NCBI GenBank assembly: GCA_024699575.1
Contig: JAILPF010000127.1
Span: 1-21,713 of the forward strand
DNA length: 21,713 nucleotides
DNA from: Acetatifactor sp.
GTDB lineage: Bacteria; Bacillota; Clostridia; Lachnospirales; Lachnospiraceae
Direction: 5' to 3'
The position numbers and the translations under genes were made by a program. The notes beneath the pieces are model-generated. The model did not search any database, had not been told where the DNA came from, and saw nothing but the letters and a program-made list of their open reading frames with translations. This document shows, one piece after another, positions 3,092 through 20,748 of this stretch. Position 1 is the first letter of the stretch. Every line of letters begins with the position of its first letter.

Positions 3092-5626
3092 ATGAGGATA
3101 TATGATTTTAGGGTAGAGTACCGAAAAAATCCTATTGGAATCACGGAAAAGCATCCAAGGTTTTCGTGGAAACTGGATTCTGAAACAAAAGATACGGTAC
3201 AGAAAACTTATCATATTTTGGTAAAAACAGAAGGGCAGGTTGTATGGGATGAATACGAACAGAGTGAGAATTCTATATTGATTCCATACAATGGCAAACC
3301 GCTTTGTGCAGAAACTGCATATGATGTAGAAGTAGAGGTGACAGATAATTATGGGAATTATGCGAAAGCACAGGCGTTATTTGAAACAGGTATGATAGAT
3401 AGTCTTGCATTTAAGGCAGATATGATTTCACATGACTTTCCAGAGGAAGAAACTGCGTGCCCGATTTTTTATCATACATTTATTACGAGGAAAGCCGTAA
3501 AAAGAGCGAGGATTTATATAACAGCCAGAGGCGTTTATGAAGCATATTTAAATGGAAATAGAATTGGGGAAGACCATATGGCTCCAGGATGGACAAGCTA
3601 TCACAAACGCCTGCAATATCAGATTTATGATATTACATCTATGCTGTCAGAAAAAAATGAGATTGAAATTGTAGTAGGAGACGGATGGTATAAAGGGCCT
3701 CTTGGTTTTGTCATGAAGGAAAAGATATATGGCGGTCGTACAGGCGTATTTGCAGAAGCTCACATCTGGTATGAAGACGGAAGTCGGGAAGTTGTGTGTA
3801 CGAATGACGAATGGAAGGTAAGAACCGGGGAAATTCGTTACAGCGAAATCTATATGGGAGAAATCATTGACACAACGGTTGGAATGGAAAATGGTTCCTG
3901 TGAGGATTCGCAGATTTGTTATGGCAGAGTTTGGGGTATGGATTTTGATCGTACAACTTTGACTGCACAAGAAAATGAACCGGTAAGAATTACAGAGAGA
4001 ATTCCAGGGAAAAAACTGATTATAACGCCAAAAGGCGAGAAGGTAATTGATTTCGGACAAAATCTGACAGGTGCTGAGGAAGTGCATATTAATGGAAAGA
4101 AAGGGCAAAAAATTGTAATCAGGCATGCGGAAACGCTGGATAAGGACGGAAATTTCTGTCCTGCCACACTTCGTCTTGCAAAATCAACGGATGTTTTCAT
4201 ATGCAATGGAAAAGAACAAGTCTTTCTCCCACATTTTACATTTCATGGTTTTCGTTACATTTGTGTGGAAGGCGTGGATGAAATAACGCCGGATCAGTTT
4301 ACAGCATGTGTCATGCATTCTGATATGGAAAAGACGGGTGATTTTGCCTGTTCTGATAAAAAGGTAAATCAGCTTCAAAGCAATATTGCATGGGGGCAGC
4401 GTGACAATTTCCTTGATATTCCTACGGATTGCCCGCAGCGTGATGAACGTCTGGGATGGACTGGCGATGCGCAGGTGTTTTCGTGGACAGCTGCGTTTAA
4501 TCGTAATACAGCATTGTTCTTCCGGAAATGGATGCGTGATATGACGGCGGATTCTTCTTTGGAAAAAGGAGTTCCTTATATTGTGCCGGATATTCTTGGA
4601 AAATACAGCGCAGCGGCGTGGAGCGATGCGGCAGTTATTATGCCATGGGTGGTATATCAGGTATATGGCGATAAAAGAGTTTTGGAAGAATCATGGAAAT
4701 GTATGCATGAATGGGTTGACTATATTAGAAAACAATGTGGAAAAAATGGCCTTTGGCAAAGCGGGTTTCAGTATGGAGACTGGCTGGCTATGGATAAAGA
4801 AGTATTTGGAGGTCAGACCGGAGCGACAGACCAGTATTTGATTGCAAATGCATATTTTCTTTATGTAACTGACCTTGTAAGGCAAACAGCTGAAATATTA
4901 CATATGGCGGCGGAAGCAGGTAATTATAGGAAATTATACGAGGATACGCTGTGTGCATTTCGTCGGGAGTACTATACGGAAACAGGGAGGATTGTCAGTG
5001 AGACGCAGACAGGGGCAGTCCTGTCGCTTTATTTTAATCTGGCAAGAGAAGAGGACAGAGAGAGGATTCTGCATACGTTAGTTTCCAATATCCAAAAACA
5101 TAAAAACCATCTGACAACGGGATTTGTGGGAACACCGTACCTGTGTCATACGTTATCTGACAACGGTTATCATGAACTGGCAGCAACATTGTTTATGAAT
5201 GAAGATACGCCGTCATGGCTGTATGCGGTCAATATGGGAGCAACCACCATATGGGAACGCTGGAATTCCATTCTTCCGGACGGCAGCTTTCAGGGAGATG
5301 ATATGAATTCTTTAAATCATTACGCATATGGCTCTATCGGAGACTGGATGTACCGGAAAATTGCCGGAGTGAGCCAGATGGAACCGGGATATAAAAAATT
5401 TAAAGTGCAGCCAATGTTTGTAAAAGGAATTGAGGAAGCGGGAATCTGGTTTGAATCTGTGTATGGAAAAATTGAGAGTAAATGGAGCCGAAAAGATGGG
5501 AAGATTCGGGGATATGTCAGAGTTCCGGCTAATACAATGGCAGAAATACATCTGCCTGAAAAGGAAGATGTATTTAGGGTGGGTTCTGGTATTTATAAAT
5601 ATGAATATGCCAGCCGGATAAAGTGA
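3092..5626 (+). CDS. GH78 alpha-L-rhamnosidase (first copy)
   Basis: This enzyme should cleave terminal alpha-L-rhamnose from glycosides by the inverting mechanism of GH78. Order of domains in 844 residues: Fn3-like beta domain (about 1-105), jelly-roll domains with YITARGVYEAYLNG and EIVVGDGWYKG (about 125-300), then the alpha-barrel catalytic domain. The acid-side motif is complete, CPQRDERLGWTGDA, with Asp451, Glu452 and Asp459. The base is expected to be Glu722 in GATTIWERW. A C-terminal beta domain follows. There is no signal peptide, so it is cytoplasmic. AGGAGA lies 5 bases before ATG 3092. It is the first gene of unit A and sits behind the shared operator. Two GH78 copies in one locus suggest different linkages or substrates. 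Confidence 0.93.
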   Translation: MRIYDFRVEYRKNPIGITEKHPRFSWKLDSETKDTVQKTYHILVKTEGQVVWDEYEQSENSILIPYNGKPLCAETAYDVEVEVTDNYGNYAKAQALFETGMIDSLAFKADMISHDFPEEETACPIFYHTFITRKAVKRARIYITARGVYEAYLNGNRIGEDHMAPGWTSYHKRLQYQIYDITSMLSEKNEIEIVVGDGWYKGPLGFVMKEKIYGGRTGVFAEAHIWYEDGSREVVCTNDEWKVRTGEIRYSEIYMGEIIDTTVGMENGSCEDSQICYGRVWGMDFDRTTLTAQENEPVRITERIPGKKLIITPKGEKVIDFGQNLTGAEEVHINGKKGQKIVIRHAETLDKDGNFCPATLRLAKSTDVFICNGKEQVFLPHFTFHGFRYICVEGVDEITPDQFTACVMHSDMEKTGDFACSDKKVNQLQSNIAWGQRDNFLDIPTDCPQRDERLGWTGDAQVFSWTAAFNRNTALFFRKWMRDMTADSSLEKGVPYIVPDILGKYSAAAWSDAAVIMPWVVYQVYGDKRVLEESWKCMHEWVDYIRKQCGKNGLWQSGFQYGDWLAMDKEVFGGQTGATDQYLIANAYFLYVTDLVRQTAEILHMAAEAGNYRKLYEDTLCAFRREYYTETGRIVSETQTGAVLSLYFNLAREEDRERILHTLVSNIQKHKNHLTTGFVGTPYLCHTLSDNGYHELAATLFMNEDTPSWLYAVNMGATTIWERWNSILPDGSFQGDDMNSLNHYAYGSIGDWMYRKIAGVSQMEPGYKKFKVQPMFVKGIEEAGIWFESVYGKIESKWSRKDGKIRGYVRVPANTMAEIHLPEKEDVFRVGSGIYKYEYASRIK

Positions 5627-5676
5627 TTTTGAGGTACATGGGTTGGAAGAAAAACACTTTCAACTATTGATTTGAG

Positions 5677-5694
5677 TGTCTGCCAAAGCAGACA
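5677..5694. repeat. Short hairpin upstream of the first AEC gene
   Basis: TGTCTGC-CAAA-GCAGACA is a perfect 7-base stem with a 4-base loop, placed 13 bases before the likely start of the AEC gene. No T-run follows, so it is not a standard terminator. It may tune expression of the carrier relative to the rhamnosidase, or stabilise a processed transcript end. Confidence 0.4.
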
Positions 5695-5707
5695 GATGGG
5701 TGTAAAA

Positions 5708-6619
5708 ATGAAAAATGTTGTTACAATGCAGATTACCATGTTCACATTGATTCTTGCAGGGCTGATAGTGAAAAAGAAAGGATTGGTATCGGAAGAAGGG
5801 CAGAAAAATATCACAGATTTGGTGATTTATATTGTCCTTCCCTGCAATATTTTAAATGCATTTATGGTCGAGGGTAATCAGGAGTTTCTGGGGCAGTTCT
5901 TTATGGTTTTGGCACTCAGCATCGGAATTCAGGCTTTCAGTTCGATAGCAGGTAAAATACTATATTCAAAAAAAGAACTTTCCCATCAAATGAGCCTGCG
6001 GTATGGATTAATCTGTTCCAATGCCGGTTTTCTGGGAAACCCTGTTGCAGAAGGGATGTTTGGGGAAACGGGGCTTGCTATGGCGAATGTGTTTCTGATT
6101 CCGCTGCGTATTATGATGTGGTCATCCGGGCTTGGCATATATACCGGAAATAACGACTGGAAAAGCACAGTGAAAAAAGTAATCACACATCCCTGTATCC
6201 TTGCCTGCCTGGCGGGGGTTTTGATTATGTGCCTGCAGGTTCCCATTCCGGCAGTACCGAAAAATGTAATCCAGACAATCGGAAGGTGCAATACGGCATT
6301 ATCGATGATGGTAATTGGGATGATACTGGCGGGGGCGGATATACGTCTTTTGTTTGACCAGGAAGTACTTGCATACAGTGTTTTGCGTCTGGCAGTGATG
6401 CCTGCACTGGTCTATGGGGTGTGCCGGTTGTTTTCGATGCCGTCTCTGGTGACCGGAATCTGTGTGGTTTTAACAGGTATGCCGGCGGGAGCGACTACAA
6501 GTATTCTTGCCAGTAAATATCATGCGGATGAAATATTTGCGACAAAGCTGGTGGTGGTTTCTACAGTACTTTCCATGGTAACAATACCCTTATGGAGCAT
6601 GGCGCTTGCGGAGATATAA
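5708..6619 (+). CDS. AEC (auxin efflux carrier) family transporter, first copy
   Basis: This integral membrane protein has about ten hydrophobic segments and the family's signature stretches: SNAGFLGNP in the first half and GMPAGATTSILASKYHADEI followed by FATKLVVVSTVLSMVTIP at the end. AEC carriers move organic acids such as malate or malonate in characterised bacterial cases and auxin in plants; many clostridial members have no known substrate. The length, about 303 residues, is normal. ATG 5708 gives a natural hydrophobic N-terminus (MKNVVTMQITMFTL). ATG 5696 and a TTG at 5672 are in frame but lie in or next to a hairpin, and no start has a strong ribosome site. Its position between a rhamnosidase and a hydrolase suggests export or import of an acid or aglycone derived from the glycoside. 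Confidence 0.85.
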   Translation: MKNVVTMQITMFTLILAGLIVKKKGLVSEEGQKNITDLVIYIVLPCNILNAFMVEGNQEFLGQFFMVLALSIGIQAFSSIAGKILYSKKELSHQMSLRYGLICSNAGFLGNPVAEGMFGETGLAMANVFLIPLRIMMWSSGLGIYTGNNDWKSTVKKVITHPCILACLAGVLIMCLQVPIPAVPKNVIQTIGRCNTALSMMVIGMILAGADIRLLFDQEVLAYSVLRLAVMPALVYGVCRLFSMPSLVTGICVVLTGMPAGATTSILASKYHADEIFATKLVVVSTVLSMVTIPLWSMALAEI

Positions 6620-6652: not shown

Positions 6653-8332
6653 ATGGCTGAGATGGAGGAAAGAGAATTATATTTGAGAATGGAGCAATGG
6701 GTGAAGGGGCAGTTTGAAGAGGTTTCCATAAAGGCTACGCGGAATGTGGGGAAAACGGAAGAGCGGATGCTGCCGATGCGGGATGGAACCTGCCTGAAAA
6801 CGGTAATCCGGTTTCCGGAGCCTGTGGAAGAAGGCGAACAGTTCCCAACAGTACTTGTGCGTTCCTGTTATCCCGGGCAGGAAGTGATTCTGCGTATCCG
6901 GGCGGAAGAATTTGTAAAAAGAGGCTTCGGATTTGTATACCAGTGGTGCCGGGGAACCGGAGGTTCACAGGGAGAATGGGAGCCGAATGTCAATGAAAGG
7001 GATGACGGGCTGGATACGGTTAACTGGCTGGCAAGGCAGCCGATTGTAAAAAATATCGGATACTGGGGGGATTCCTATCTGGCGTTAACCGGCTGGTGCA
7101 TGGCGGATGCGGTTCCGGAGAAAGTAAAAACCATGTGCCTTGGCGTGTATGGGGCAGACCGCCATGTCTCTGCATATCAGGACGGTCTTTTCCGGATGGA
7201 TGTGCTGACATCCTGGGCAAGGGAAAATGCAGGAACAGCCATTGCGGCTGATAATGAGACTTCGTACCTGTTCCGGCCGCAGAAGGATGTGGACGAAAAA
7301 TTATGGGGCGTGCATCTGGACTGGTACAGGGATTGGGTAAGCAATCCGGAGAGGGAGGCGGATTACTGGAAGCAGGGATTTTGGGGAATGTTGAAAGGGA
7401 TTCCGCAAAAAGTAAGAATTCCCATGCTGATACGGGAAGGCTGGTACGACCACCATCTGGGAAGCGCGCTTATATCTTATGGGCAGCTTTCAGAGGAAAC
7501 CAGACGGCATTCTGTTTTGCAGATTGGTCCATGGAACCATAATTATATGGCTGTGATTCCGGAAGAAAAAATTTCACAGCTGAAAGACGATTCAGCATCA
7601 GCGCCGCTGGAATGGTTTTACAGAATCCTTGTAAAGGGTGAAATTCCGGAGGGCGGGATAAAGGAATATGTCATCGGGGAAGACCGCTGGGTGGAAAAGA
7701 AGGATATGCGGGATTCAGCCGGGAAGATATTCTATCTGTGTGCAGATGGGTCTCTGAACGAAAGGGCGGAAAAAAATGGAAAGAGAACCTACTGCTATGA
7801 TCCGGAAAACCCGGTGCGCAGCCACGGCGGGGAATCCATGCTTGCGGATATGAAGGAAAATGGAAGCTTTTTGCAGCCCGGACCGGATTATCGGAAGGAC
7901 GTGATTTCTTTTGTCTCTGATGTACTGGATAAAAAGCTTCTGGTGGAAGGAAGAATAAAGGTAAAGCTTTTTGTAAGTTCGGATGCGGAGGATACGGCCT
8001 TTACGGCAAAAATAATGGAAGTGTTTCCCGATGGGAAGACGGTCAATGTACGGGGAAGCATTACCACCCTTGCTTTCAGGAATGGCTCTGACTGCAGGCA
8101 GGAATATATACCGGGGGAAATAGTGGAAATCTGCATTCAGATGTGGGATATAGCATGGTGTTTTCGTGAAGGCTCCAGAGTCCGTGTAGATATCAGCTCT
8201 TCCGATTTTCCGCAATATGCGGTTCATACCAATTATCCGGGATTGTGGTCTTTGCAGGATAAAACAAAAAAGGCGGTTCAGGCTGTCTATACAGGATTAC
8301 AATATCCGTCTGCCGTTATTTTGCCAATTTAA
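6653..8332 (+). CDS. CocE/NonD family alpha/beta hydrolase (X-Pro peptidase S15-like)
   Basis: The 559-residue protein is a serine hydrolase of the cocaine-esterase / X-Pro dipeptidyl-peptidase family. The triad is readable: Ser141 in GDSYLALTG, Asp266 in REGWYDHH and His296 in GPWNHNY. MLPMRDGTCLKTVIRFPEP near the N-terminus is the usual first strand pair. The C-terminal third (about 345-559) is the galactose-binding-like jelly roll, with RVRVDISSSDFPQY near its end. Annotation pipelines often name such proteins peptidases, but members also cleave esters. The context, between sugar-releasing genes and with no peptide transport nearby, favours an ester or amide in an acylated glycoside; this is inference. 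AAGGAGAG precedes ATG 6653. There is no signal peptide. It is the last gene of unit A. Confidence 0.85.
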   Translation: MAEMEERELYLRMEQWVKGQFEEVSIKATRNVGKTEERMLPMRDGTCLKTVIRFPEPVEEGEQFPTVLVRSCYPGQEVILRIRAEEFVKRGFGFVYQWCRGTGGSQGEWEPNVNERDDGLDTVNWLARQPIVKNIGYWGDSYLALTGWCMADAVPEKVKTMCLGVYGADRHVSAYQDGLFRMDVLTSWARENAGTAIAADNETSYLFRPQKDVDEKLWGVHLDWYRDWVSNPEREADYWKQGFWGMLKGIPQKVRIPMLIREGWYDHHLGSALISYGQLSEETRRHSVLQIGPWNHNYMAVIPEEKISQLKDDSASAPLEWFYRILVKGEIPEGGIKEYVIGEDRWVEKKDMRDSAGKIFYLCADGSLNERAEKNGKRTYCYDPENPVRSHGGESMLADMKENGSFLQPGPDYRKDVISFVSDVLDKKLLVEGRIKVKLFVSSDAEDTAFTAKIMEVFPDGKTVNVRGSITTLAFRNGSDCRQEYIPGEIVEICIQMWDIAWCFREGSRVRVDISSSDFPQYAVHTNYPGLWSLQDKTKKAVQAVYTGLQYPSAVILPI

Positions 8333-8433: not shown

Positions 8434-9951
8434 ATGGGAAAAGAAAAGCAAATTCAAACTGCGAATGAGAGTGCGCAATACCGCCGTGCCAAAACAAGCA
8501 CCATCTTACTGGTAATGTTGCAGGGGGCTTCCTGCGCATGCTTTTATTCCGCAATCGGTTCTGTAAGTTATGCGGCAAATCTGGGATTCGGCATCTCTGT
8601 ATTGCTGGTGGGAACCCTGATGACGCTGGCACGATTGTTTGATGGGATTACAGATCCGATTATTTCTATGGTTATTGACAAATGTAATACCAGATTCGGA
8701 AAAATCCGCCTGTTCTGCATACTTGGCTGGGCCATTATGGCGTTTTCCATGAAGATGATGTACGACTGGTGTGCGGGGAAAGGGCATTCTCTTGTATTGT
8801 TTGTTACGATTTATTTTTTGTATTACATAGGCTACACATTTATGAACATGATCGGGATGCTGATATCTCCTGTTATGACAAATGACCCGAAGCAGAGACC
8901 GATGATTGGCGTATGTTCAACAGCATATACTTATATTATTAATATAGCGCTTTCTATTGTGACAATGATGGTTCTGCTGCCGTCAGCCGGTAATCAATAT
9001 ACACTGGAACTGCTGGCAAGAGTGTCTAACTTTACAGTATGCCTTTCGGGCGTATTACTTCTGCTTTCCATGATAGGGCTTTCCAGAATTGATAAACCTG
9101 AAAATTTTATTGCAGGTTCTTCCGATAAAGATGAAAAAGTGAAATGGAAAGATATGTTGAATCTACTAAAGGATAATAAGGGGCTGCAGTGTTATATTCT
9201 GGCAGCAACTTCAGATAAACTGGCAATGACGATAACTGGCCAGTCTATTATCGGAACCTTATTATATGGCGTTGTGATTGGCAATATGCAGCTGAGCGCC
9301 ATTTTAAATATCGTTGCCATTGTTCCCATTCTTATCTTTGCAGTGGTAAGCGGAAAATACGCCGGTAAAAATGGAAGCCAGAAATCAATTACTTTCTGGA
9401 GTACCGTTGCCATTGTGGTAAATACTATTCTGATTGTATTTATGCTTATGAATGCAGGGAGTCCTGTGGCGAAATCCATGCCTATGATGATTTTATTTGT
9501 TATCCTGACAATGGTGCAGAACGGTTTAAGGGTTGCAGTCAGCATCCCTACAGGCAGTATGATGGCAGACGTGGTGGATTATGAGGCTTACCGGAGTGGA
9601 AAATATATGCCGGGTACAGTAGCGGGTGTCCACAATTTTATTGATAAGGCAGTCTCTTCTGTAGGCGCAGTAGTTGCAACATTCTGTATAACACTGATTG
9701 GGTATAAGGAGGTAATGCCGCAGCCTACAGACCCTAAAACAATGCCGGTTGTAATCTTGATTTGTGCTGTTTTTTACGGTTTACCGATTCTTGGCTGGAT
9801 ATGTTCCTTGATTGCCATGAAAAAAACGCCTGTTACGAAGGAAATGATGATAGAGGTACAGAAAACGATTGCAGAAAGGAAAAACTCGAGAAGTGAGAAT
9901 AACAGAGTGGTTGACGAAATAGAATCTGTACAGCAGCAGGAAGAGGAATAG
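8434..9951 (+). CDS. GPH family (MelB-type) glycoside:cation symporter
   Basis: A 505-residue, roughly 12-segment membrane protein of the glycoside-pentoside-hexuronide:cation symporter family in the MFS superfamily. Diagnostic stretches are ARLFDGITDPIISMVIDKCN TRFGK after the second helix and ADVVDYEAYRSGKYMPGTVA in the second half. It should carry a sugar or small glycoside inward with Na+ or H+. The C-terminal tail after about 465 is hydrophilic and Glu-rich, likely cytoplasmic. AGGAGG lies ten bases before ATG 8434. As the first gene of unit B and the only recognisable sugar importer in the window, it is the best candidate for uptake of the intact substrate. No PTS or ABC sugar transporter is present. 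Confidence 0.9.
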   Translation: MGKEKQIQTANESAQYRRAKTSTILLVMLQGASCACFYSAIGSVSYAANLGFGISVLLVGTLMTLARLFDGITDPIISMVIDKCNTRFGKIRLFCILGWAIMAFSMKMMYDWCAGKGHSLVLFVTIYFLYYIGYTFMNMIGMLISPVMTNDPKQRPMIGVCSTAYTYIINIALSIVTMMVLLPSAGNQYTLELLARVSNFTVCLSGVLLLLSMIGLSRIDKPENFIAGSSDKDEKVKWKDMLNLLKDNKGLQCYILAATSDKLAMTITGQSIIGTLLYGVVIGNMQLSAILNIVAIVPILIFAVVSGKYAGKNGSQKSITFWSTVAIVVNTILIVFMLMNAGSPVAKSMPMMILFVILTMVQNGLRVAVSIPTGSMMADVVDYEAYRSGKYMPGTVAGVHNFIDKAVSSVGAVVATFCITLIGYKEVMPQPTDPKTMPVVILICAVFYGLPILGWICSLIAMKKTPVTKEMMIEVQKTIAERKNSRSENNRVVDEIESVQQQEEE

Positions 9952-9994
9952 ACAGCTGTATCAGGGAGCAGGAAATAGCAGAAAGGAAATGAAT

Positions 9995-10957
9995 ATGCAA
10001 TTAGACAAGTATGCAGCGCCATGCAGTGAGCCTGGAAGGATTGAATGCATCCGTTATCCCTCACGGGCCTATGCGTTGGAGGCATTTTACAGAAAAGAGT
10101 GCATCCCTCTTGAAAAGACGATGTACGTTTATCTGCCCTATGGATATGATGCGGGGAAAAAGTACCCTGTACTCTACCTGATGCATGGCGGTACGGATGA
10201 TGAAGGGTACTGGTTCGGGAAGGGAAGATATAACGAGGCTGACAGGGAAAAGTATACGGATGTCGGGAATGTGACACAGAATCTGACAGACCATCTGATT
10301 CAGGATAAAATTATAAAGCCGCTTATTATCGTTACTCCCAGTTTTTGCGAAAATGTGGGGGAATATAAGAACAGGAAGGAATATCCTCTAATCTATTTCG
10401 AAGCGGTTAATTATTTTTGGATGGAACTGGAAAATGACATTATGCCATATATCCAGAAACACTATGCAACTTATGCGGAGGATGCCACAAGAGAAGCGTT
10501 TGCGAAGGTGAGAGAGTATACGGCTTTTGCGGGAGCTTCCCAGGGGTCGATTACCGGATTGTATTCGGTTATGATGCATATGCTGGATGTGGTTGGCTAT
10601 GTCGGCTCCTTTTCCGCAGGCGCAATCCGATATCATCTGGATGGAAAAGAAGTGAGAGTGGAATTGGATGAAGCGAAGCTTGCAGAGCTTGCGGAAGCGT
10701 TAAAGAACGGACCAGAACTTTGTTACTGGTACAATGGATGCGGCAGCCATGACAGGATGTATCCTACCCACAGAGAAACCTTCGACAGACTGAAAAGTCT
10801 GTGTGTAAAGGAGTTGCGGGAGGAAGATGAAGAAACAGGCAACTGTTGCTTCCAATTACAGGAAAGCGGGGAGCACAGCTATCGCTATTGGATTAAGGAT
10901 TATTATAATATTTTACGGTTATTTTTCCGCAACAGTGAGGAGGAATGCAATTTATGA
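9995..10957 (+). CDS. Esterase D / feruloyl-esterase-like alpha/beta hydrolase
   Basis: This is a PF00756-type esterase of 320 residues, the family that includes feruloyl esterase domains of xylanases. Visible parts are YLPYGYD..KKYPVLYLMHGG, the nucleophile elbow GASQG, the Asp in GCGSHDRM and the His in SGEHSYRYW. Counted from this start they are Ser182, Asp253 and His294. ATG 9995 is preferred over ATG 9989 because AAAGGA (9982-9987) would leave a single base before the earlier ATG but a normal spacing for the later one. No signal peptide is present. Its stop overlaps the next gene's start as ATGA, so the two are translationally coupled. Removing an aromatic acyl group from a glycoside is a reasonable inference; the acyl group is unknown. 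Confidence 0.85.
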   Translation: MQLDKYAAPCSEPGRIECIRYPSRAYALEAFYRKECIPLEKTMYVYLPYGYDAGKKYPVLYLMHGGTDDEGYWFGKGRYNEADREKYTDVGNVTQNLTDHLIQDKIIKPLIIVTPSFCENVGEYKNRKEYPLIYFEAVNYFWMELENDIMPYIQKHYATYAEDATREAFAKVREYTAFAGASQGSITGLYSVMMHMLDVVGYVGSFSAGAIRYHLDGKEVRVELDEAKLAELAEALKNGPELCYWYNGCGSHDRMYPTHRETFDRLKSLCVKELREEDEETGNCCFQLQESGEHSYRYWIKDYYNILRLFFRNSEEECNL

Positions 10958-12531
10958 TCATTGAAAATACAGAATTTGGCCGTATTGAAGTTACAGATAT
11001 ACCGCTTCCGGAAGGGGTCGATTCCAATGTAAACGGAACCTATACTTTTTCCGGGCGCATACTGGTGGCTGTCAGGGAACCGGAGAAGGAAGAAGATTGG
11101 TACAGAGTACTTACGATGGATGAGGACGGCACAGAAATCTGCGAATTGTTTGATGGAATTATCAGGAAGAAAAAGGGAGCAAACGGAATCCGCTGGATGT
11201 GTTATTCTGACAATAAACGGATTCTTCTGGGCGATTATGTGCTGGAGTGTACGCCGGATTTAGACCATTGCACGTCTTCTGAATTAGTTGAAGTGGTATT
11301 TCCCGAAGAAATCAGTAAAATTCCCGGAATCTTTGTGAGATGGTCAGAACCGCTGATTGCGCCGGATCAGGAACATATCTGTTTTTCTTCCCTAACAGGA
11401 AACGGTGTTTTTAACTTTCTGGGAAAGCTTGTGAGGCAGGAATTCCGGTATGTTATGGAAGATATGTGCATTATCAGTACGGTAAACGATATGGAGCCGG
11501 ATATGGACAGCGAGGGCTTTTACCGCGTCAATGTACGCCGGGGCGGGGAAGTCAAACAGTTTGTAAAAGGCGGGAGAGGGCTTACGCTGGCAGGAGGAGG
11601 AACCTGCATCACGGAAAGTACGCTGCAGATGTTGGACACGGAAGAAGTTGCTCAGATTACCGAAACCCTCGGTTATGAAGAAACGGCCATTTTTTCTCCA
11701 AATGAAAAATACGCAGTGTGTATGTCCCCGAGATTTTCCCCAGAGACGGACTGCGGCGTATTAGGAGTGGTACCGTTATATCATGATATGATTACACGGC
11801 GAAAATATCTGAATGTATTGTATCAGTATGCAATTGCAGGCGTTCGATACGAGAAAGCCGGCAATATTGGGCCGGTACTGATTGATATCTGCCGCTCTAT
11901 GAGCGAGGGCCGGAATTATCAGGGCGTGGATTTAAGCGACCCGGAAGGAACATGGGTTTATTATTCCCCTATGAGCTGGCATCCGGACAGTACGAAAGCT
12001 ATGTGGAATGAGAGTACCAGAGTAACGGAAGGAACGGTAAAGGGCAGGCTGAGAAGATGTCGGCTCCTGGATGTGCAGCCCTCCGAACCGGTGCCGATGG
12101 TACCGACTCCAGAGAAAGATGCAATTCCATATGCGCTTCCGACAGAAGCTGCCATAACCCGGATGGAGCCGGAGTACCCTGTAAAAATAAAAGGGGCAGG
12201 AGGCGGTATTGTGATAAACTCCTGTATTGCGGAAGATACCGTTGAAACCCGGTATGAGAACTACAGCGAGGACGGAAAGACTTTTTATAACGGGTGGATT
12301 CGTGTAAAGGCTCCGGCAAATATGTTTATGCCGGAAGAGACCGTTATTTGGAGCGATATTCGAGTGACAGGGGAACATACCGGGCAGATGAAGCTTCGCA
12401 TTACATTTTTACCGGACAGGAGATTTCAGGTGCATCTTGCGAAAGGTATGGGAGAGGACGGTTATCCGAAATGCGCCGGTTTTGCAGAGTATGACGGGAT
12501 ACGGAGAGATGTGGGGGATATGGCGGATTGA
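10954..12531 (+). CDS. Uncharacterised beta-propeller-like cytoplasmic protein (candidate new glycoside-active enzyme)
   Basis: I do not recognise a named family for this 525-residue protein. Several segments look like TolB/PD40 propeller strands: YSDNKRILLG (84-93), APDQEHICFSS (136-146), SPNEKYAVCMS (248-258) and HPDSTKAMWNE (343-353). Residues about 30-380 may therefore form a propeller. A separate beta-rich domain follows (about 400-525) with TRYENYSEDGKTFYNGWIRV. There is no signal peptide, membrane segment or GxSxG. Histidines at 277, 343 and 475 could serve in metal binding or catalysis; this is speculation. ATG 10954 is chosen because it overlaps the esterase stop (ATGA) with GAGGAGG ten bases upstream; ATG 10945 has no spacing. 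Its stop overlaps the TTG start of the AEC gene. Coupling on both sides says its product is needed together with the esterase and carrier. A hydrolase, lyase or epimerase are all possible. Confidence 0.7.
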   Translation: MIIENTEFGRIEVTDIPLPEGVDSNVNGTYTFSGRILVAVREPEKEEDWYRVLTMDEDGTEICELFDGIIRKKKGANGIRWMCYSDNKRILLGDYVLECTPDLDHCTSSELVEVVFPEEISKIPGIFVRWSEPLIAPDQEHICFSSLTGNGVFNFLGKLVRQEFRYVMEDMCIISTVNDMEPDMDSEGFYRVNVRRGGEVKQFVKGGRGLTLAGGGTCITESTLQMLDTEEVAQITETLGYEETAIFSPNEKYAVCMSPRFSPETDCGVLGVVPLYHDMITRRKYLNVLYQYAIAGVRYEKAGNIGPVLIDICRSMSEGRNYQGVDLSDPEGTWVYYSPMSWHPDSTKAMWNESTRVTEGTVKGRLRRCRLLDVQPSEPVPMVPTPEKDAIPYALPTEAAITRMEPEYPVKIKGAGGGIVINSCIAEDTVETRYENYSEDGKTFYNGWIRVKAPANMFMPEETVIWSDIRVTGEHTGQMKLRITFLPDRRFQVHLAKGMGEDGYPKCAGFAEYDGIRRDVGDMAD

Positions 12532-13442
12532 AAACCACATTCATATTTTTAAATCAGACCGTATTGATGTTCCTTTTGGCGGGAATTGGATACATACTTT
12601 ATAAGAGAGGAAAAATTACAAAAGAAGGAAGCAAAACCATTGGAAATATTTTGATTAATCTGGTATTGCCGGGAGTAATCATACAAAGTTTCCTTGTGGA
12701 AAGAACAGCGGAACGTGTTGTAGGTTTGGCATTATCTGCAGTTCTGGCAGCAGTGATTCTTCTTTTGTCAGTTTTTATATCGGGAGTTTTTTTAAAAAGA
12801 GATCCAATAGCATCTTTTGCGGGGGCTTTTTCCAATCCTGGTTTTTTTGGGGTGCCGCTGATAGCGGCATCCCTCACAGACAGGGCCGTATTTTATATTG
12901 CGTCTTTTATTGCTTTTTTAAACCTGTTACAGTGGTCTTATGGTGTGGCGATTATGACTGGAAAAAGCGGCAGGATTACGATGAAACGGCTGCTTACAGC
13001 CCCCTTCTTTATAGCAATTGTGATTGGATTTCTTTTGTTTGTAACACAAATTCCTTTGCCCGGGCTTTTGACAAAAGCGTTGCATCATGTGACAGCCCTA
13101 AATACGCCGCTTGCCATGTTTGTAGTAGGTGTTTATCTGGCACAGACTGATTTGGCGGGGATGTTCAGGAAAAAATACATTTATAAAGTATGTTTTATCC
13201 GGCTTGTAATGATACCGGTTCTTACACTGGCGGTATTAATGTTAGTGCCGCCAATATTTTATGAAATGAAAATGGCGATACTGATTGCATCGGCCTGTCC
13301 AGTTGGAACAAATGTGGCAATTTATGCACAGCTTCATAATCAGGATTATCCTTATGCTGTAGAGACGGTTGTCATTTCAACGCTTCTTTCAATCGTAACA
13401 ATACCGGCAATTATGACGGCGGCAGAAATGCTTTTTCTGTAA
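12528..13442 (+). CDS. AEC family transporter, second copy
   Basis: A 304-residue membrane protein with about ten hydrophobic segments and AEC signatures: FSNPGFFGVPLI, LNTPLAMFVVGVYLA and ASACPVGTNVAIYAQLHNQD, with VVISTLLSIVTIPAIM at the C-terminus. It is clearly diverged from the copy at 5708. Its TTG start (12528-12530) overlaps the preceding gene's TGA (12529-12531), so translation is probably coupled; a GGGGG run at 12513-12517 may serve as a weak ribosome site. Two distinct AEC carriers in one glycoside locus is unusual and suggests two products, or a product and a precursor, cross the membrane. Direction and substrate cannot be read from sequence. Confidence 0.85.
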   Translation: MKTTFIFLNQTVLMFLLAGIGYILYKRGKITKEGSKTIGNILINLVLPGVIIQSFLVERTAERVVGLALSAVLAAVILLLSVFISGVFLKRDPIASFAGAFSNPGFFGVPLIAASLTDRAVFYIASFIAFLNLLQWSYGVAIMTGKSGRITMKRLLTAPFFIAIVIGFLLFVTQIPLPGLLTKALHHVTALNTPLAMFVVGVYLAQTDLAGMFRKKYIYKVCFIRLVMIPVLTLAVLMLVPPIFYEMKMAILIASACPVGTNVAIYAQLHNQDYPYAVETVVISTLLSIVTIPAIMTAAEMLFL

Positions 13443-13476: not shown

Positions 13477-15708
13477 ATGGAAAAACAACAATTAGAAGAA
13501 TTACTAAAGGATATGTCATTACAGGAAAAGGTAGATCAGATGCTTCAGATTACAGGCAGATTCTATCAAATGGATATTAATTCAGTACTGACAGGACCAG
13601 CGCTTCAGATGGGTTTAATAGAAAGTGATATCAATATGGCAGGCTCCATATTGGGAACATACGGCGCAAAAGAACTGAAACAAATTCAGAAAACCTATAT
13701 GGAACAGCATCCTCATCATATTCCCATGTTGTTTATGATGGATATCATACATGGTATGAAGACAATCTTTCCCATGCCGCTGGCAATGGGGGCGTCCTTT
13801 GAGCCGGAATTGGTAAGGCGCTGTGCGCAGGCGTCAGCAAAGGAAGCCGCCTATAGTGGGTTGCATGTAACTTTTTCACCCATGGTGGATTTGGTCCGGG
13901 ATGCCAGATGGGGGCGTGTCATGGAATCTACCGGGGAAGACCCATATCTGAACAGCCGTATGGCAGAGGCACAGGTCAGGGGATTTCAGGGAGAAAGTAT
14001 GAGTGAAGAGGGCAGGGTCTGTGCCTGTGTCAAGCATTTTGCGGGGTATGGTGCAGCGGTAGCCGGACGTGAATACAGTGCAGCTGAATTGTCCGAGAGA
14101 ACTTTACGGCAATATTATTTCCCGGCATATAAGGCAGGGATTGATGCCGGGGCCGGTATGGTCATGACAGCATTTAATACCATTGATAATATACCGGCAA
14201 CTGCAAATAGGTGGCTGATGCGGGATATCCTGCGTGGAGAGATGGGATTTGGTGGTGTCCTGATTTCGGATTTTTCAGCAATTCTTGAAACTGTAGTCCA
14301 TGGATATGCGGAAGATAAAAAGGATGCCGCAAAAAAGGCAGTAGAAGCCGGAGTGGACATTGATATGATGACCGGTTGTTATAGTGAAAATCTTGCAGAA
14401 CTGGTGGAACAGGGAATCGTTCCGGAATCTCTGGTGGATGAATGTGTTTGGCGGATTCTGGATTTGAAAAATAAGCTGGGGCTTTTTGACAATCCGTATA
14501 AAGATGCTGACGAGGCTAAGGCAGAAGAGGTTATTCTTTGCCGGGAACACAGGGCGCTTGCCAGGGAGGCAGCAGGAAAATCCTGTGTTTTGCTGAAAAA
14601 TGAAAATATTCTTCCATTAAATAAGGAGAAAAAAATTGCCTTTATAGGTCCTTATACATATTGTAAAAAAATAATATCAAACTGGTCAGTGGCGGGAGAA
14701 AGTAAAGACTGTGTCAGTGTGAAAGAGGCGGCTGACGAGATTTTTGACTCAATCCATACCTCATATCATGCAGGGTCGCAAATGACAGGAAGGAAGGTGA
14801 GATTTGAGGGCTTTTCGGCTTTTGGTAAGGCTGCAGAGCCGGATGATGAAGAATGGGGTGAAGAAAAAGAGAGAAAAGAACTTGAGGAAGCGGTACGGGC
14901 GGCAAAAGAGGCAGAGATTGTAGTGCTGTCTGTGGGGGAATCCTATCTGCACAGTGGTGAGGCATGCAGCCGGGCTTTTTTGGATATCCCGGAGGTACAA
15001 ATGAATTTGTTTCGAAGGATTGCCGAAGTAAACCCCAATATCGTAGTTGTACTGTTTAATGGGCGTCCTCTGGATATACGTGAAATCAGCGCAAAATCTA
15101 AGGCATTACTGGTCGCATGGATGCCGGGAACGGAAGGTGGTCATGGGATTGTAGATGTTTTAACCGGAAAAGTTAATCCTTCTGGTAAACTTCCTATGAG
15201 TTTCCCTTATTGTGTAGGACAGTGTCCGGTTTTTTATAATGAATTGTCCACCGGACGTCCGTACCGCGAAGGAGATACAAACCGTTATTTTTCCAAATAT
15301 CTGGACATACCCAATAAACCATTGTATCCATTTGGATATGGATTGAGCTATTCAGAATTTGAGATATCACCGGTAAAGCTGAATAAAAATAGTTTTTGTG
15401 AAGGAGATGTGATTACAGCCAGCGTGACAGTGAAAAATACTGGGGAATTTCCCGGCACGGAGGTCATACAGCTTTATGTTCAGGATGTGGCTGCAAGTGT
15501 GGCACGTCCGGTAAAGGAACTGAAAGGATTTGAGAAAGTGACGCTACGGGAAAGTGAAGAAGCTGTGGTTTCTTTCCGGATTGACGAAACGATGCTTTCC
15601 TTTATCCGGGCGGACGGCACTGTAGGCTGTGAGCCGGGGCTGTTCCGTATATGGGTCGGAAATAGCAGTGAGACAAGCAATATGGCTGAATTTTGGCTGA
15701 CGAAATGA
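13477..15708 (+). CDS. GH3 beta-glucosidase (BglX-like), intracellular
   Basis: A 743-residue family 3 glycoside hydrolase with the (beta/alpha)8 domain first, the alpha/beta sandwich second and a fibronectin-III-like domain last (about 650-743). The nucleophile is Asp265 in GVLISDFSA. Substrate-binding stretches RWGRVMESTGEDPYL and CVKHFAGYG are intact. Glu495 in YLHSGEACSR is the likely acid/base. No signal peptide is present. AAAGGAGA precedes ATG 13477. It should remove beta-linked glucose, or a similar sugar, once rhamnose and acyl groups are gone; xylosidase or other GH3 activity cannot be excluded by sequence alone. It is the last gene of unit B and is followed by a strong inverted repeat. 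Confidence 0.92.
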   Translation: MEKQQLEELLKDMSLQEKVDQMLQITGRFYQMDINSVLTGPALQMGLIESDINMAGSILGTYGAKELKQIQKTYMEQHPHHIPMLFMMDIIHGMKTIFPMPLAMGASFEPELVRRCAQASAKEAAYSGLHVTFSPMVDLVRDARWGRVMESTGEDPYLNSRMAEAQVRGFQGESMSEEGRVCACVKHFAGYGAAVAGREYSAAELSERTLRQYYFPAYKAGIDAGAGMVMTAFNTIDNIPATANRWLMRDILRGEMGFGGVLISDFSAILETVVHGYAEDKKDAAKKAVEAGVDIDMMTGCYSENLAELVEQGIVPESLVDECVWRILDLKNKLGLFDNPYKDADEAKAEEVILCREHRALAREAAGKSCVLLKNENILPLNKEKKIAFIGPYTYCKKIISNWSVAGESKDCVSVKEAADEIFDSIHTSYHAGSQMTGRKVRFEGFSAFGKAAEPDDEEWGEEKERKELEEAVRAAKEAEIVVLSVGESYLHSGEACSRAFLDIPEVQMNLFRRIAEVNPNIVVVLFNGRPLDIREISAKSKALLVAWMPGTEGGHGIVDVLTGKVNPSGKLPMSFPYCVGQCPVFYNELSTGRPYREGDTNRYFSKYLDIPNKPLYPFGYGLSYSEFEISPVKLNKNSFCEGDVITASVTVKNTGEFPGTEVIQLYVQDVAASVARPVKELKGFEKVTLRESEEAVVSFRIDETMLSFIRADGTVGCEPGLFRIWVGNSSETSNMAEFWLTK

Positions 15709-15717
15709 TATTACGGT

Positions 15718-15755
15718 TAGCATATCGTAATTTTGAAAGAGATTACGATATGCTA
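15718..15755. terminator. 14-bp perfect hairpin between convergent genes, likely bidirectional terminator
   Basis: TAGCATATCGTAAT (15718-15731) pairs perfectly with ATTACGATATGCTA (15742-15755) around a 10-base loop. It lies ten bases after the GH3 stop, and its right arm includes the stop codon of the reverse-strand araC gene. Neither side is followed by a strong T-run, so termination efficiency is uncertain, but the position between converging genes is typical. Confidence 0.6.
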
Positions 15756-16964
15756 TATCTTTGCATTCAGGGATTTATATTGGCTGGGAGACATGCCAAC
15801 CTTTTTCATAAAACATGTGGAAAAATAACTCCGGTTACAGAATCCAAGCGTATCGCTGATTTCCTGTATACTTTGACTGCTGTCAGTGAGCAGAAGCTTC
15901 GCCCGAGAGATTTTTTCATTTAAAATATACTCCTTGATCGTAATGCCGGTTTCTTTTTGGAACTTATAGGAAAAGTAATATTCCGTATAGCCGGTCAGCT
16001 TTGCCAAATTTTCTATACATAGCGATTCCGTCAGATGTTTCTGTATATAATAGCAGATATTTTGAATTGAGGGTGAAATGGAAGAGTCTGCCTTGGCATG
16101 CTGTACCTGCGACATAAAATCAGACACCATATCCTTACAGAATTTGACTACTTCCCCCGTTGTCCGGCATTCTTCCAACAGGGAGGCATAATATTCATAG
16201 AGGTCAAAGGCGGCGGAGGGGTGCAGGCCGCCACGGATACAGGAACGGGAACATAAGGTTAATAAAACCAGCGCATTATTCTTATTTTTACGGACGGCAT
16301 CCTTTAGTTCTGACTTTGCACCGGAAGAAATGGAAAGCAGGGATATAATTGCCGATACAGCGGAATGGTCTCCATTTTCAAACATTTGGCAGAGGCTTTG
16401 TTCTTTTTTCCACAGGCTTTCCGCTGCCACAGAATAGGTCTCTCTGGCAGGAGACAGCACTTCTCTGTCCTGTACAAAAAATTTTACATCTGACAGAGGA
16501 AGGGTTTCATCATTCAGAGCATAATGCAGCATGACGGCATAATTGGCAAGCATGCCGTTGGGGATTAAGGGGGTTGTGGCAATCATTCTGCTGACAATAG
16601 AGTGAGTACGGACGGACAATTCGTAGGTTTCCAGCTTTTGGCGCAGCAAATCGGAGGTATCCCTGCCGGTTACGGCAGGTCCCAGAAAATGTATACTTTC
16701 AAGTTCCCTGTTTTTGTGGCAAAAGCCGATAATCCACAGCATGCCTACATTTGTTTCCAGAATCAGCGGAGAAAGGAAACCGGAGGCAAGGTGGGATGAA
16801 ACCGCAGGAATAAAGTCCGATACGGATATCAAATCCCATTTGGCCGTGGTATCCAACAGTTCAAAGTCTGCATTATAGCTCCATAATGACAAAGAATAAT
16901 TACTGCAGATTAATTTATGAAGGAAAGTCAGTTTTTCTTTCAGGTTCATGATATTTTCTTTCAT
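15753..16964 (-). CDS. AraC family transcriptional regulator
   Basis: The last 100 residues of this 403-residue protein form the double helix-turn-helix of AraC/XylS regulators. The first is CIENLAKLTGYTEYYFSYKF. The second is QEISDTLGFCNRSYFSTCFM, followed by KKVGMSPSQYK. The long N-terminal part (1-300) is not a simple cupin and resembles the sensor regions of other clostridial AraC proteins; its ligand is unknown. It is convergent with unit B and, with the hpr-like gene, divergent from unit C. That makes it the obvious local regulator of all three units, probably an activator responding to the glycoside or a released sugar. The start is uncertain: at ATG 16964 the GGAAAGG site abuts the codon, and the alternative ATG 16949 has overly long spacing. 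Its first 50 bases overlap the hpr-like gene. Confidence 0.88.
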   Translation of the reverse strand: MKENIMNLKEKLTFLHKLICSNYSLSLWSYNADFELLDTTAKWDLISVSDFIPAVSSHLASGFLSPLILETNVGMLWIIGFCHKNRELESIHFLGPAVTGRDTSDLLRQKLETYELSVRTHSIVSRMIATTPLIPNGMLANYAVMLHYALNDETLPLSDVKFFVQDREVLSPARETYSVAAESLWKKEQSLCQMFENGDHSAVSAIISLLSISSGAKSELKDAVRKNKNNALVLLTLCSRSCIRGGLHPSAAFDLYEYYASLLEECRTTGEVVKFCKDMVSDFMSQVQHAKADSSISPSIQNICYYIQKHLTESLCIENLAKLTGYTEYYFSYKFQKETGITIKEYILNEKISRAKLLLTDSSQSIQEISDTLGFCNRSYFSTCFMKKVGMSPSQYKSLNAKI

Positions 16965-19973: not shown

Positions 19974-19986
19974 AAGGAGGGGGAAA

Positions 19987-20748
19987 ATGGAAGAGATGGA
20001 AAGGCAGGCGGAAGAAATAAAAAATAAGATGGAGCGGCAATTGATGCTGCCCGGAAATGCGCCTGATTATGATTTGAGTAAGGTTGTGGAATATCCTGAA
20101 AGTTTTTTGAAAGGAAAAAGGGTTTTATTTCTGGGCAGCAGTGTTACATATGGTGCGGTGGGAGTTTCTTTTGTCGAATATCTGGTGCGGAAAGATGGGT
20201 TGGTTGCAGATAAACAGGCAATCAGCGGAACAACGCTGGTGGACGAAGAGTCTGTGTTTGCGCGGGTTGGTTTTGGTAATGGGGGCAGTTATGTCCGACG
20301 CCTGAAAGAGCTGGTAAAGACATCAAACCAGTACGAATGTTTTGTCTGCCAGCTATCTACCAATGATGCCAGTAGTGGAAAGCCTATGGGGGTTATCAGC
20401 CAATCGAGGGAACTGGAAGATTTCGACACGTTAACAGTGATTGGCGCGATGGAATATATCATAGCGTATGTAAGGAAGCACTGGAATTGCCCGATTGTAT
20501 TTTATACAGCATGTTTTTATGAGAATCCAATATATGAGGAAATGGTTCGGAATCTGTATGTTTTACGGGATAAATGGGGGATTAAAATCATTGACCTGTA
20601 TACGGATAAAGAATTTAATGGAATTTCTGATAAAGAGAGAGCGCTGTATATGATGGATGAAATACATCCTACAAGAGCAGGATATCTGAACTGGTGGCTC
20701 CCGGAGTTTGAAAAACGATTGGAAGAGATTATGAAAACAGGCAGATAG
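19987..20748 (+). CDS. SGNH/GDSL family esterase
   Basis: A 253-residue serine esterase with the SGNH blocks. Block I is LFLGSSVTYG with Ser52 as nucleophile, block II AISGTT (Gly81), block III CQLSTND (Asn126), and block V DEIHPTRAGY with Asp224 and His227. The first 40 residues are a charged helical extension. AAGGAGGGG lies just before ATG 19987, which is preferred to an upstream in-frame TTG (19966) overlapping the rhamnosidase end. No signal peptide. Such enzymes commonly remove acetyl or other small acyl groups from sugars. Tight linkage to the second rhamnosidase suggests de-acylation of rhamnose or a neighbouring sugar; acyl specificity is unknown. Confidence 0.88.
   Translation: MEEMERQAEEIKNKMERQLMLPGNAPDYDLSKVVEYPESFLKGKRVLFLGSSVTYGAVGVSFVEYLVRKDGLVADKQAISGTTLVDEESVFARVGFGNGGSYVRRLKELVKTSNQYECFVCQLSTNDASSGKPMGVISQSRELEDFDTLTVIGAMEYIIAYVRKHWNCPIVFYTACFYENPIYEEMVRNLYVLRDKWGIKIIDLYTDKEFNGISDKERALYMMDEIHPTRAGYLNWWLPEFEKRLEEIMKTGR

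Follow-up and report, generated by a model that had tools for sequence, protein, structure and literature searches.

A beta-propeller protein family encoded among rhamnose and glucuronate genes: a candidate glycoside-cleaving enzyme for saponin-type substrates

A 525-residue protein of the gut bacterium Acetatifactor sp. belongs to an unnamed beta-propeller family whose gene, membership, predicted fold, conservation pattern and gene neighbourhoods are established here. Its relatives are often encoded among genes whose products strip rhamnose and glucuronate off plant compounds, and the protein is therefore probably an enzyme not recognised so far, one that cleaves molecules of saponin-like type. 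The reading proposed, with a probability of roughly 40%, is an uncatalogued beta-propeller glycoside-cleaving enzyme for plant glycosides bearing rhamnose and glucuronate, most likely one that hydrolyses a saponin-type beta-glucuronosyl bond. The whole stretch of DNA analysed, 21,713 nucleotides long and here called the window, includes the following genes:

3092 to 5626, + strand: GH78 alpha-L-rhamnosidase 1 (Pfam)
6653 to 8332, + strand: CocE/NonD-type hydrolase (TIGR00976 over cut-off)
8434 to 9951, + strand: GPH-type sugar:cation symporter (MFS_2 over cut-off; TIGR00792 below cut-off)
9989 to 10957, + strand: putative esterase overlapping the propeller start (ORF; PF00756)
10954 to 12531, + strand: propeller protein of an unnamed family, 525 aa (ORF; relatives found; no Pfam or NCBIfam match at E<=1)
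12528 to 13442, + strand: Mem_trans (auxin-efflux-carrier type) transporter, with a possible TTG start overlapping the propeller stop (ORF; Pfam)
13477 to 15708, + strand: GH3 beta-glycosidase (BglX model over cut-off)
15753 to 16964, - strand: AraC-type regulator (several AraC models, all below cut-off)
17442 to 19973, + strand: GH78 alpha-L-rhamnosidase 2 (Pfam; the window copy nearest to the GH78 in relatives' loci)
19966 to 20748, + strand: GDSL-like hydrolase (PF13472 below its cut-off)

The propeller gene is real, running from the ATG at 10954 to the stop codon at 12529 to 12531. Starting at the in-frame ATG at 10945 would lengthen the protein by three residues, but the alignment of close relatives begins at the 10954 ATG, and a GAGGAGG ends 10 bases 5' of it. 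As the first-pass annotation had proposed, the gene is coupled on both sides: its start overlaps the end of the esterase ORF at 10957 (ATGA), and its stop overlaps the possible start at 12528 of the downstream ORF (TTGA). A relaxase gene lies upstream of the propeller gene. Ten listed congeners all lack the propeller gene (0/10). Probes for GUS and uronate genes had no match anywhere in the window's own 21.7 kb; the genome itself, which is 78% complete, holds a GH2 fragment (33% identity) on a contig shared with a UxaC that bears in-frame stops.

The protein had been described as unrecognised, and in the Pfam and NCBIfam libraries searched (E<=1) its family indeed has no name. When the family profile, from alignment A1, was run against all PDB sequences, the sole match to E=10 was a cytochrome oxidase chain at 1.5, which is not credible. 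From 46 pattern-matched stretches, 39 loci outside the window were found to encode a relative, and the alignment of 39 sequences has many invariant columns; the family is thus more than a product of chance. Relatives are 35-81% identical to the window protein in the best segment and come mostly from Clostridia, with others in Paenibacillus, Novosphingobium and Treponema. A plasmid search for relatives returned no match, 64 pattern matches in viral contigs included no true relative, and in a phylum-wide draw of 398 genomes only the protein's own genome has the gene. A1 comprises 39 sequences (the cut or split copies L009, L024, L026, L027, L039 and L040 were omitted), of which 26 form alignment A3; the family tree has 47 rows, none having been dropped by the length filter.

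The protein had been called propeller-like, and both AlphaFold models and the fold searches agree on a propeller. AlphaFold predicts a confident beta-propeller followed by a C-terminal beta-sandwich for the window protein (pLDDT 93.5, pTM 0.91), and residues 1-402 alone are modelled at pLDDT 90.5 and pTM 0.89. For these residues Foldseek placed TolB first with a probability of 1.0 (best 50 of 869 matches listed), and the matches listed also include paraoxonase, a lactonase. The TM-score nowhere exceeds 0.47 among the matches listed in the two fold searches (best 50 of 551 and best 50 of 869). PD40 is matched in 16 of 39 family members (E<=0.1, best 1.5e-4) and not in the window protein itself; the models, the fold matches and PD40 in relatives place the protein in the PD40/TolB-like propeller fold class. 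Of the four or more PD40/TolB-like strands first reported, three segments (near residues 137, 249 and 344) are mutually alike, the fraction of position pairs as good being 0.0002-0.0017, whereas the fourth, near residue 86, is no more like the others in sequence than background (0.05-0.33). Seven blades had been named as support for an enzyme; our own grouping of strands from DSSP of the models gives six. In the model the N-terminal strand 9-16 probably closes the last blade, and a helical insert (about residues 263-306) lies within blade 5. The distinct C-terminal beta domain also recognised earlier corresponds to model strands at residues 410-519. It contains an NYSEDG hairpin with invariant S438, D440 and G441 (A1), which we read as Asp-box-like. 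The fungal saponin hydrolase and the window protein may share similar motifs, an impression that goes back to the segment YENYSEDGKTFYNG, which looks like an Asp-box-type hairpin; such hairpins are found in differing folds, and the likeness is therefore weak alone. The domains and the residues of most interest are:

10954 to 12078, + strand: propeller domain, about residues 1-375, six strand groups (DSSP of models)
11347 to 11349, + strand: Glu132, a candidate catalytic acid, in the WSE motif on the inner strand of blade 3 (invariant in A1; DSSP)
11548 to 11556, + strand: Glu199 and Lys201 of the GGExKQF motif, inner strand of blade 4 (invariant in A1; DSSP)
11680 to 11685, + strand: Glu243-Thr244 of the GYxET motif, inner strand of blade 5 (A1; Glu243 by DSSP)
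11965 to 11985, + strand: SPMSWHP motif, residues 338-344, inner-strand end of blade 6 (A1, DSSP)
12181 to 12510, + strand: C-terminal beta-sandwich, residues 410-519 (model strands)

Conservation is concentrated on the inner strands, which average 3.58 bits per column under strict DSSP ranges (3.01, 2.94 and 2.52 for the outer strands); wider hand-set ranges give 3.60, 3.13, 2.94 and 2.57 bits in unchanged order. In a circular-shift test 6 of 400 shifts were as good, namely shift 0 and the next five, and the conservation peak runs on into the turn after the inner strand. Conserved polar residues across homologues, which the first-pass annotation had named as a feature that would support an enzyme, are present as invariant Glu132, Glu199, Lys201 and Glu243 on inner strands. 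Glu199 and Glu243 are further candidate catalytic acids, and Lys201 is a candidate carboxylate binder. Arg80, Arg260 and Glu353 fall outside the DSSP inner strands. His343 is the sole invariant His of the family, and three more columns are at least 50% His. The putative pocket was placed by strand order in the predicted model.

The carbohydrate-locus setting extends to the relatives, whose neighbour genes release rhamnose and glucuronate. Neighbours were counted for 39 loci (L002-L040), up to 10 kb on each side where the contig allowed; L043-L047, with 1.5 kb flanks, entered the neighbour clustering and probe searches and lie outside these counts. The clustering omitted L001, L041 and L042, which by their equal lengths and scores were judged to duplicate, respectively, the window, L021 and L022, and clusters 7, 17 and 18, probably shadow ORFs, were not used. 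A GH78 or GH106 relative occurs at 26/39 loci (at least 100 bits), and the 13 loci without a rhamnosidase include several on short contigs; since many contigs are short, missing neighbours are partly a matter of truncation. GH78 copy 2 of the window is 46-68% identical to the relatives' GH78 in 21/22 loci; the GH78 of L006 is 31% identical to it and nearer to copy 1. Downstream of the L016 and L017 copies lie genes for a rhamnulose-1-phosphate aldolase, over cut-off, and for a rhamnulokinase-type protein, below it, and L017 adds a rhamnose isomerase over cut-off. Relatives of the AraC-type regulator occur at 11/39 loci (at least 100 bits).

On the glucuronate side, GH2 relatives are found at 9/39 loci at 200 bits or more, and 28/39 lack one at 100 bits or more. 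NxKG, the uronate-recognition motif, is present in 10/11 GH2 genes. The best PDB match of a representative GH2 is the beta-glucuronidase 7kgz (1135 bits), which we equate with the R. hominis 3 GUS described in passages of PMC8748916. Two of the three sphingomonad copies have a GH79-type gene nearby. In L060 it adjoins the propeller copy, is over the Pfam cut-off and has heparanase and hyaluronoglucuronidase as best PDB matches; in L059 it lies one gene away on the opposite strand, below cut-off, and is 36% identical to that of L060. The flanks of the third copy (L037) show no GH79; an L-fucono-1,5-lactonase-like gene, below cut-off, lies further from that copy. At a distance of 4 to 7 kb from the L059 copy, the models for mannonate dehydratase and glucuronate isomerase score over cut-off, and UxaC lies about 4 kb from the L021 copy on the other strand. 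An AP_endonuc_2 TIM-barrel relative is encoded at 24/39 loci; it matches 8bvk at 1.3e-10 and has invariant His/Glu/Asp of metal-site type over 16 sequences. This partner has no match in the window, in the protein's own genome (E<=0.001, 78% complete), in the Paenibacillus loci L029, L032, L034 and L035 or in the sphingomonad loci L037, L059 and L060.

The reported lack of a secretion signal holds for the N terminus of the window protein, as read by eye, and does not extend to the family: likewise by eye, 9/10 Paenibacillus-type copies have export leaders (Sec- or lipoprotein-type), as do sphingomonad copies, and another copy carries three SLH repeats (S-layer anchors). Cytoplasmic and exported versions in different lineages suit an enzyme that follows its substrate.

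From this material we infer enzyme status, a uronate-type substrate, hydrolytic chemistry and the roles of individual residues. Hydrolysis would act on the beta-glucuronosyl linkage, either at the aglycone or at the sugar that follows. The central channel of the propeller would form the pocket; two of the three invariant glutamates (Glu132, Glu199, Glu243) would be the acid pair there, and Lys201, Arg80 or Arg260 would hold the uronate carboxylate. In gut Clostridia the substrate would be imported by the GPH symporter and attacked in the cytoplasm, the other sugars being removed by GH78, GH3, GH2 and GH1 enzymes; in Paenibacillus and sphingomonads the same enzyme would work outside the cytoplasm. 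More tentatively, the protein may be a founding member of a new GH family: a six-bladed propeller whose Glu pair cuts the bond between glucuronosyl group and triterpenoid in saponins that bear rhamnose, working in the cytoplasm of gut anaerobes and, in soil bacteria, after export or on a surface anchor. The neighbourhood evidence fits any step of such a pathway.

A glycoside hydrolase for a bond other than glucuronosyl (e.g., galactosyl, arabinosyl, glucosyl or an acylated sugar) is unlikely, though it has several points in its favour. GH1 (10/39 loci) and GH43 (7/39), both at 100 bits or more, suggest further sugars in the substrate, the window has three esterase-like genes by Pfam, and some loci already have a GUS-type GH2 gene, where a second glucuronidase looks redundant. 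Against it, the invariant Lys and Glu on inner strands point to uronate, as do two unrelated glucuronidase families and uronate catabolism nearby in two bacterial lineages. A sugar lactonase, or a non-catalytic ligand-binding propeller (a sensor or binding protein), is quite unlikely: TolB and paraoxonase rank among the best fold matches listed and L037 has its lactonase-like gene, but the versions inside and outside the cytoplasm, and possible four-base start/stop overlaps with GH78, GPH or GH1 genes at seven loci, speak for an enzyme.

It is distinctly improbable that the protein is a rhamnosyl-glucuronate lyase or rhamnosidase that works like PL42/GH145, cutting Rha-alpha-1,4-GlcA caps off the side chains of arabinogalactan or gum-type polymers. 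The rhamnose and glucuronate context agrees with this, and PL42 and GH145 are propellers according to passages of PMC8377490; the same passages give PL42 a His and an Arg, against the single invariant His here. Membership of GH145/PL42, a comparison suggested earlier, was rejected: there is no Pfam match at E<=1, the profile search brought up neither a solved member nor any credible PDB chain, and neither family is named among the fold matches listed (best 50 of 551 and of 869). Our reading of DSSP tentatively gives six strand groups, not seven. Last, deglycosylation by oxidation and elimination with the TIM-barrel partner, the propeller being for instance a hydratase or accessory eliminase, has a small chance and is not preferred to glucuronosyl hydrolysis, since the partner's kinship to 8bvk (the O-glycoside beta-eliminase AtOGE in passages of PMC10628242) and its metal-type site are set against its absence from the window and the other loci named and against the lack of any noticed Gfo/Idh-kind oxidoreductase among the operon ORFs scanned, a part of the total.

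The family has no Pfam or NCBIfam model; with its confident predicted fold, its invariant acids and the consistency of its pathway neighbours, it lends itself to direct tests on substrates that can be had. Hydrolysis of the glucuronosyl bond of saponins, if true, would make it a bacterial counterpart of the fungal saponin hydrolase and account for gut Clostridia freeing sapogenins; if confirmed, it would contribute a further family of enzymes, a means of producing sapogenins and a genetic marker of saponin use. In the titles, abstract starts and passages searched, no propeller saponin hydrolase is named. The saponin glycosidases of Sphingobium described in passages of one paper belong to known families and attack steroid saponins, not soyasaponin Bb (PMC10653915), and passages of a review credit soyasaponin loss in Lactobacillus rhamnosus to beta-glucosidase activity (PMC13039779).

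Among known systems, the earlier interpretation is retained for the propeller, the conserved polar residues and the carbohydrate loci, and given up for kinship with PL22 or GH145/PL42 and for seven blades. A GH2 or GH79 beta-glucuronidase identity was not borne out: there is no Pfam or NCBIfam match, and the predicted fold is a propeller rather than a TIM barrel. The PL22 metal site is built from several conserved His. PL22 oligogalacturonate lyases (3c5m, 3pe7) appear among the fold matches listed for the domain alone at TM 0.41-0.44, but the window family lacks such a site, having one invariant His, and has six blades by our grouping; PL22 membership was rejected, with no Pfam match at E<=1 (PF14583) and an hhalign probability of 0.5% for A1 against 8 PL22 sequences from 12 loci fetched. 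TolB, which carries an N-terminal domain and is not known to be an enzyme, is among the best Foldseek matches listed, most rows at probability 1.0; its rows among those matches reach TM 0.18-0.41 and 8-14% identity, and the window protein adds the helical insert and the C-terminal beta-sandwich. PL42/GH145 and PL24/25, seven-bladed in passages of PMC8377490, are likewise propeller enzymes on rhamnose/uronate bonds, but the Pfam and PDB searches gave no sequence relation to them, and none of the family's invariant columns corresponds to their set of catalytic His. The fungal saponin hydrolase Sdn1 of Neocosmospora vasinfecta is listed as extracellular, whereas the window protein has no leader. 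Passages of PMC8120277 state that Sdn1 converts soyasaponin I to soyasapogenol B and a triose, and the window protein would share this reaction and substrate class.

The propeller gene (10954-12531, forward strand) encodes 525 amino acids. As the first-pass annotation described, it overlaps both neighbours, through ATGA upstream and, provided that the downstream gene starts with TTG, through TTGA downstream. Two auxin-efflux-carrier-type transporters (PF03547) lie in the same sugar locus, at 5672-6619 and 12528-13442; the second, which may be coupled to the stop of the propeller gene, is matched at a minimum of 100 bits in a single relative locus, L023.

Searches of Pfam and NCBIfam gave no match to the protein at E<=1. 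A phmmer search of the PDB returned six matches (best E 0.11), and the 39-member family profile returned a single, irrelevant match there (E 1.5). The family is real and uncatalogued, and is very probably an enzyme family of plant-glycoside breakdown. Relatives are encoded in 39 loci, out of 46 pattern-matching stretches (genome_contigs). Alignment A1 holds 38 relatives, 33 from these loci and five more from the order-level genome sample, with 36-81% identity to the window protein. Their hosts are mainly Clostridia, many from rabbit, rumen and other animal gut samples, and also include Paenibacillus, Novosphingobium and Treponema. The Robinsoniella peoriensis copy is the closest relative (81%) and the sister of the window copy in the tree (support 100/100).

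The propeller gene is an accessory gene. It is found in 8 of 392 genomes sampled from the order, own genome counted, in none of the 10 listed congeners, and in 1 of 398 of a phylum-wide sample, namely the own genome. Family samples gave 3/199 (sphingomonads) and 8/104 (Paenibacillus); both counts include genomes that were known beforehand or had served as the centre of the sample. Neither plasmid sequences nor viral contigs contained a relative. Two genes lie upstream of the sugar operon:

7-1464, MobA/VirD2-type relaxase (PF03432, 1.2e-31)
1718-2335, MT-A70 methyltransferase (PF05063, 1.2e-30)

Given the relaxase and the gene's absence from the listed congeners, the operon may be carried by a mobilisable element.

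AlphaFold2 models of the whole protein (pLDDT 93.5, pTM 0.91) and of residues 1-402 (pLDDT 90.5, pTM 0.89) are confident. The propeller expected by the first-pass annotation is predicted, but with six blades rather than seven, a count that may be off by one; the distinct C-terminal beta domain is modelled as a sandwich.

Predicted domains of the propeller protein (blades by strand grouping from the model)
26-69, blade
80-115, blade
126-173, blade
189-234, blade
242-311, blade with helical insert
334-371, blade closed by strand 9-16
410-519, C-terminal beta-sandwich

With the propeller domain, Foldseek placed TolB first (probability 1.0, E 1.1e-6); the best 50 of 869 matches also held prolyl-peptidase propellers, PL22 lyases (TM 0.41-0.44) and the uncharacterised Dyadobacter protein 5hx0 (TM 0.44/0.47), with no TM-score above 0.47. 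The best 50 of 551 whole-chain matches were mainly chains recognised as propeller-containing.

Conservation is highest on the innermost strand and drops with each strand outward (3.58, 3.01, 2.94 and 2.52 bits per column with strict DSSP ranges; 3.60, 3.13, 2.94 and 2.57 with wider, hand-set ranges). Six of 400 circular shifts reach the inner-strand value: shift 0 and the five that follow it. The peak thus extends into the turn after the inner strand. Conserved polar residues are indeed present across homologues: Glu132, Glu199, Lys201, Glu243 and Ser341, on inner strands, are invariant in A1; Arg260, Glu353 and His343, just outside those strands, are invariant too, and Arg80, also just outside, is near-invariant.

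The predicted absence of a secretion signal holds for the Clostridia copies of A1, in which no leader was seen by eye, but not for the whole family: by eye, Sec-type leaders are present in 9 of the 10 Paenibacillus-type copies placed in the tree, and lipoprotein- or Sec-type ones in all three copies from sphingomonads. These 12 fall within one 15-row group, alongside three copies with no leader seen (L038, truncated at its start, L044 and L064). In one more copy (L069/L070, genome G1003), which lies about 3 kb from the normal-length copy L067, the propeller is joined to a cadherin-like domain plus three SLH repeats; this copy lacks about 19 profile positions immediately before the GGExKQF motif, there AGEVKQF.

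Neighbourhoods were counted over the 39 loci by tblastn at a threshold of at least 100 bits. A rhamnosidase occurs in 26 (GH78 in 22, GH106 in 5) and in none of the other 13; a GPH transporter occurs in 22, AraC in 11, GH1 in 10 and GH43 in 7. Assuming the first possible start codon, four-base overlaps are possible from the propeller gene to GH78 (L007, L008, L026, L027), to the GPH gene (L030, L031) and to GH1 (L038). Rhamnose-use genes follow the copies in loci L016 and L017 (aldolase over cut-off, kinase-type below); L017 has a rhamnose isomerase over cut-off, and the corresponding L016 ORF has no match. None of the 39 loci has, at this threshold, a relative of the window's esterase, CocE or GDSL gene, so the window's substrate may be an acylated variant.

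GH2 genes occur in 11 of the 39 loci (9 at 200 bits or more) and in none of the remaining 28 at the lower threshold; ten of the 11 genes carry NxKG. Closest to the GH2 representative is 7kgz, named beta-glucuronidase, presumably the structure that PMC8748916 describes for R. hominis 3 GUS. Two of three sphingomonad copies have a GH79-type gene close by: in L060 it adjoins the copy, over the Pfam cut-off, with heparanase and hyaluronoglucuronidase as best PDB matches; in L059 it lies one gene away, below cut-off and 36% identical to the L060 gene. In L059, genes for mannonate dehydratase and for glucuronate isomerase, both over cut-off, also lie 4 to 8 kb from the copy, as does a fructuronate-reductase-type gene that scores below the cut-off. 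Past the L021 copy, about 3 to 5 kb on, the other strand encodes UxaC and a mannitol-dehydrogenase-type protein. The window's own locus has no match to GUS, TIM-barrel or uronate probes. In the own genome, which is 78% complete, GH2 matches have 24-33% identity and TIM-barrel matches are absent; its contig C9 carries a GH2 fragment and a UxaC/glucuronate isomerase gene spread across two frames and interrupted by in-frame stops (L086, L087), either an assembly error or a decayed gene.

The main ground for proposing a glucuronide is that, across two bacterial lineages, glucuronidases of two unrelated families lie near the propeller gene. Our leading guess, at a probability of roughly 40%, is that the propeller protein is a saponin glucuronosyl hydrolase. 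It would cut the glucuronosyl bond of a rhamnose-bearing saponin, with a Glu pair and basic residues as putative catalytic machinery. Counting against this reading are the 28 loci that lack a GH2 relative and the 13 that lack a rhamnosidase at 100 bits or more, together with the negative probe results in the window's own locus and the poor GH2 and UxaC matches in its genome. An oxidative deglycosylation route served jointly with a TIM-barrel partner remains a rival. That AP_endonuc_2 partner is frequent (24 of 39 loci, e.g. L002:8997-9902) and, across 16 sequences, its YHNHN, E, ExD, H and EH residues never vary; it is possibly a new deglycosylation enzyme. It resembles AtOGE (8bvk), which PMC10628242 presents as an O-glycoside beta-eliminase.

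The PL22 site is His-based. So is that of PL42, as described in PMC8377490, unlike the family of the window protein with its one invariant His column; with the invariant acids, this makes an acid-pair hydrolase a better fit than either His-based site. The motif behind the suggested likeness to fungal saponin hydrolases resembles an Asp-box hairpin, one residue shorter than the SxDxGxTW pattern that PMC8377490 gives.
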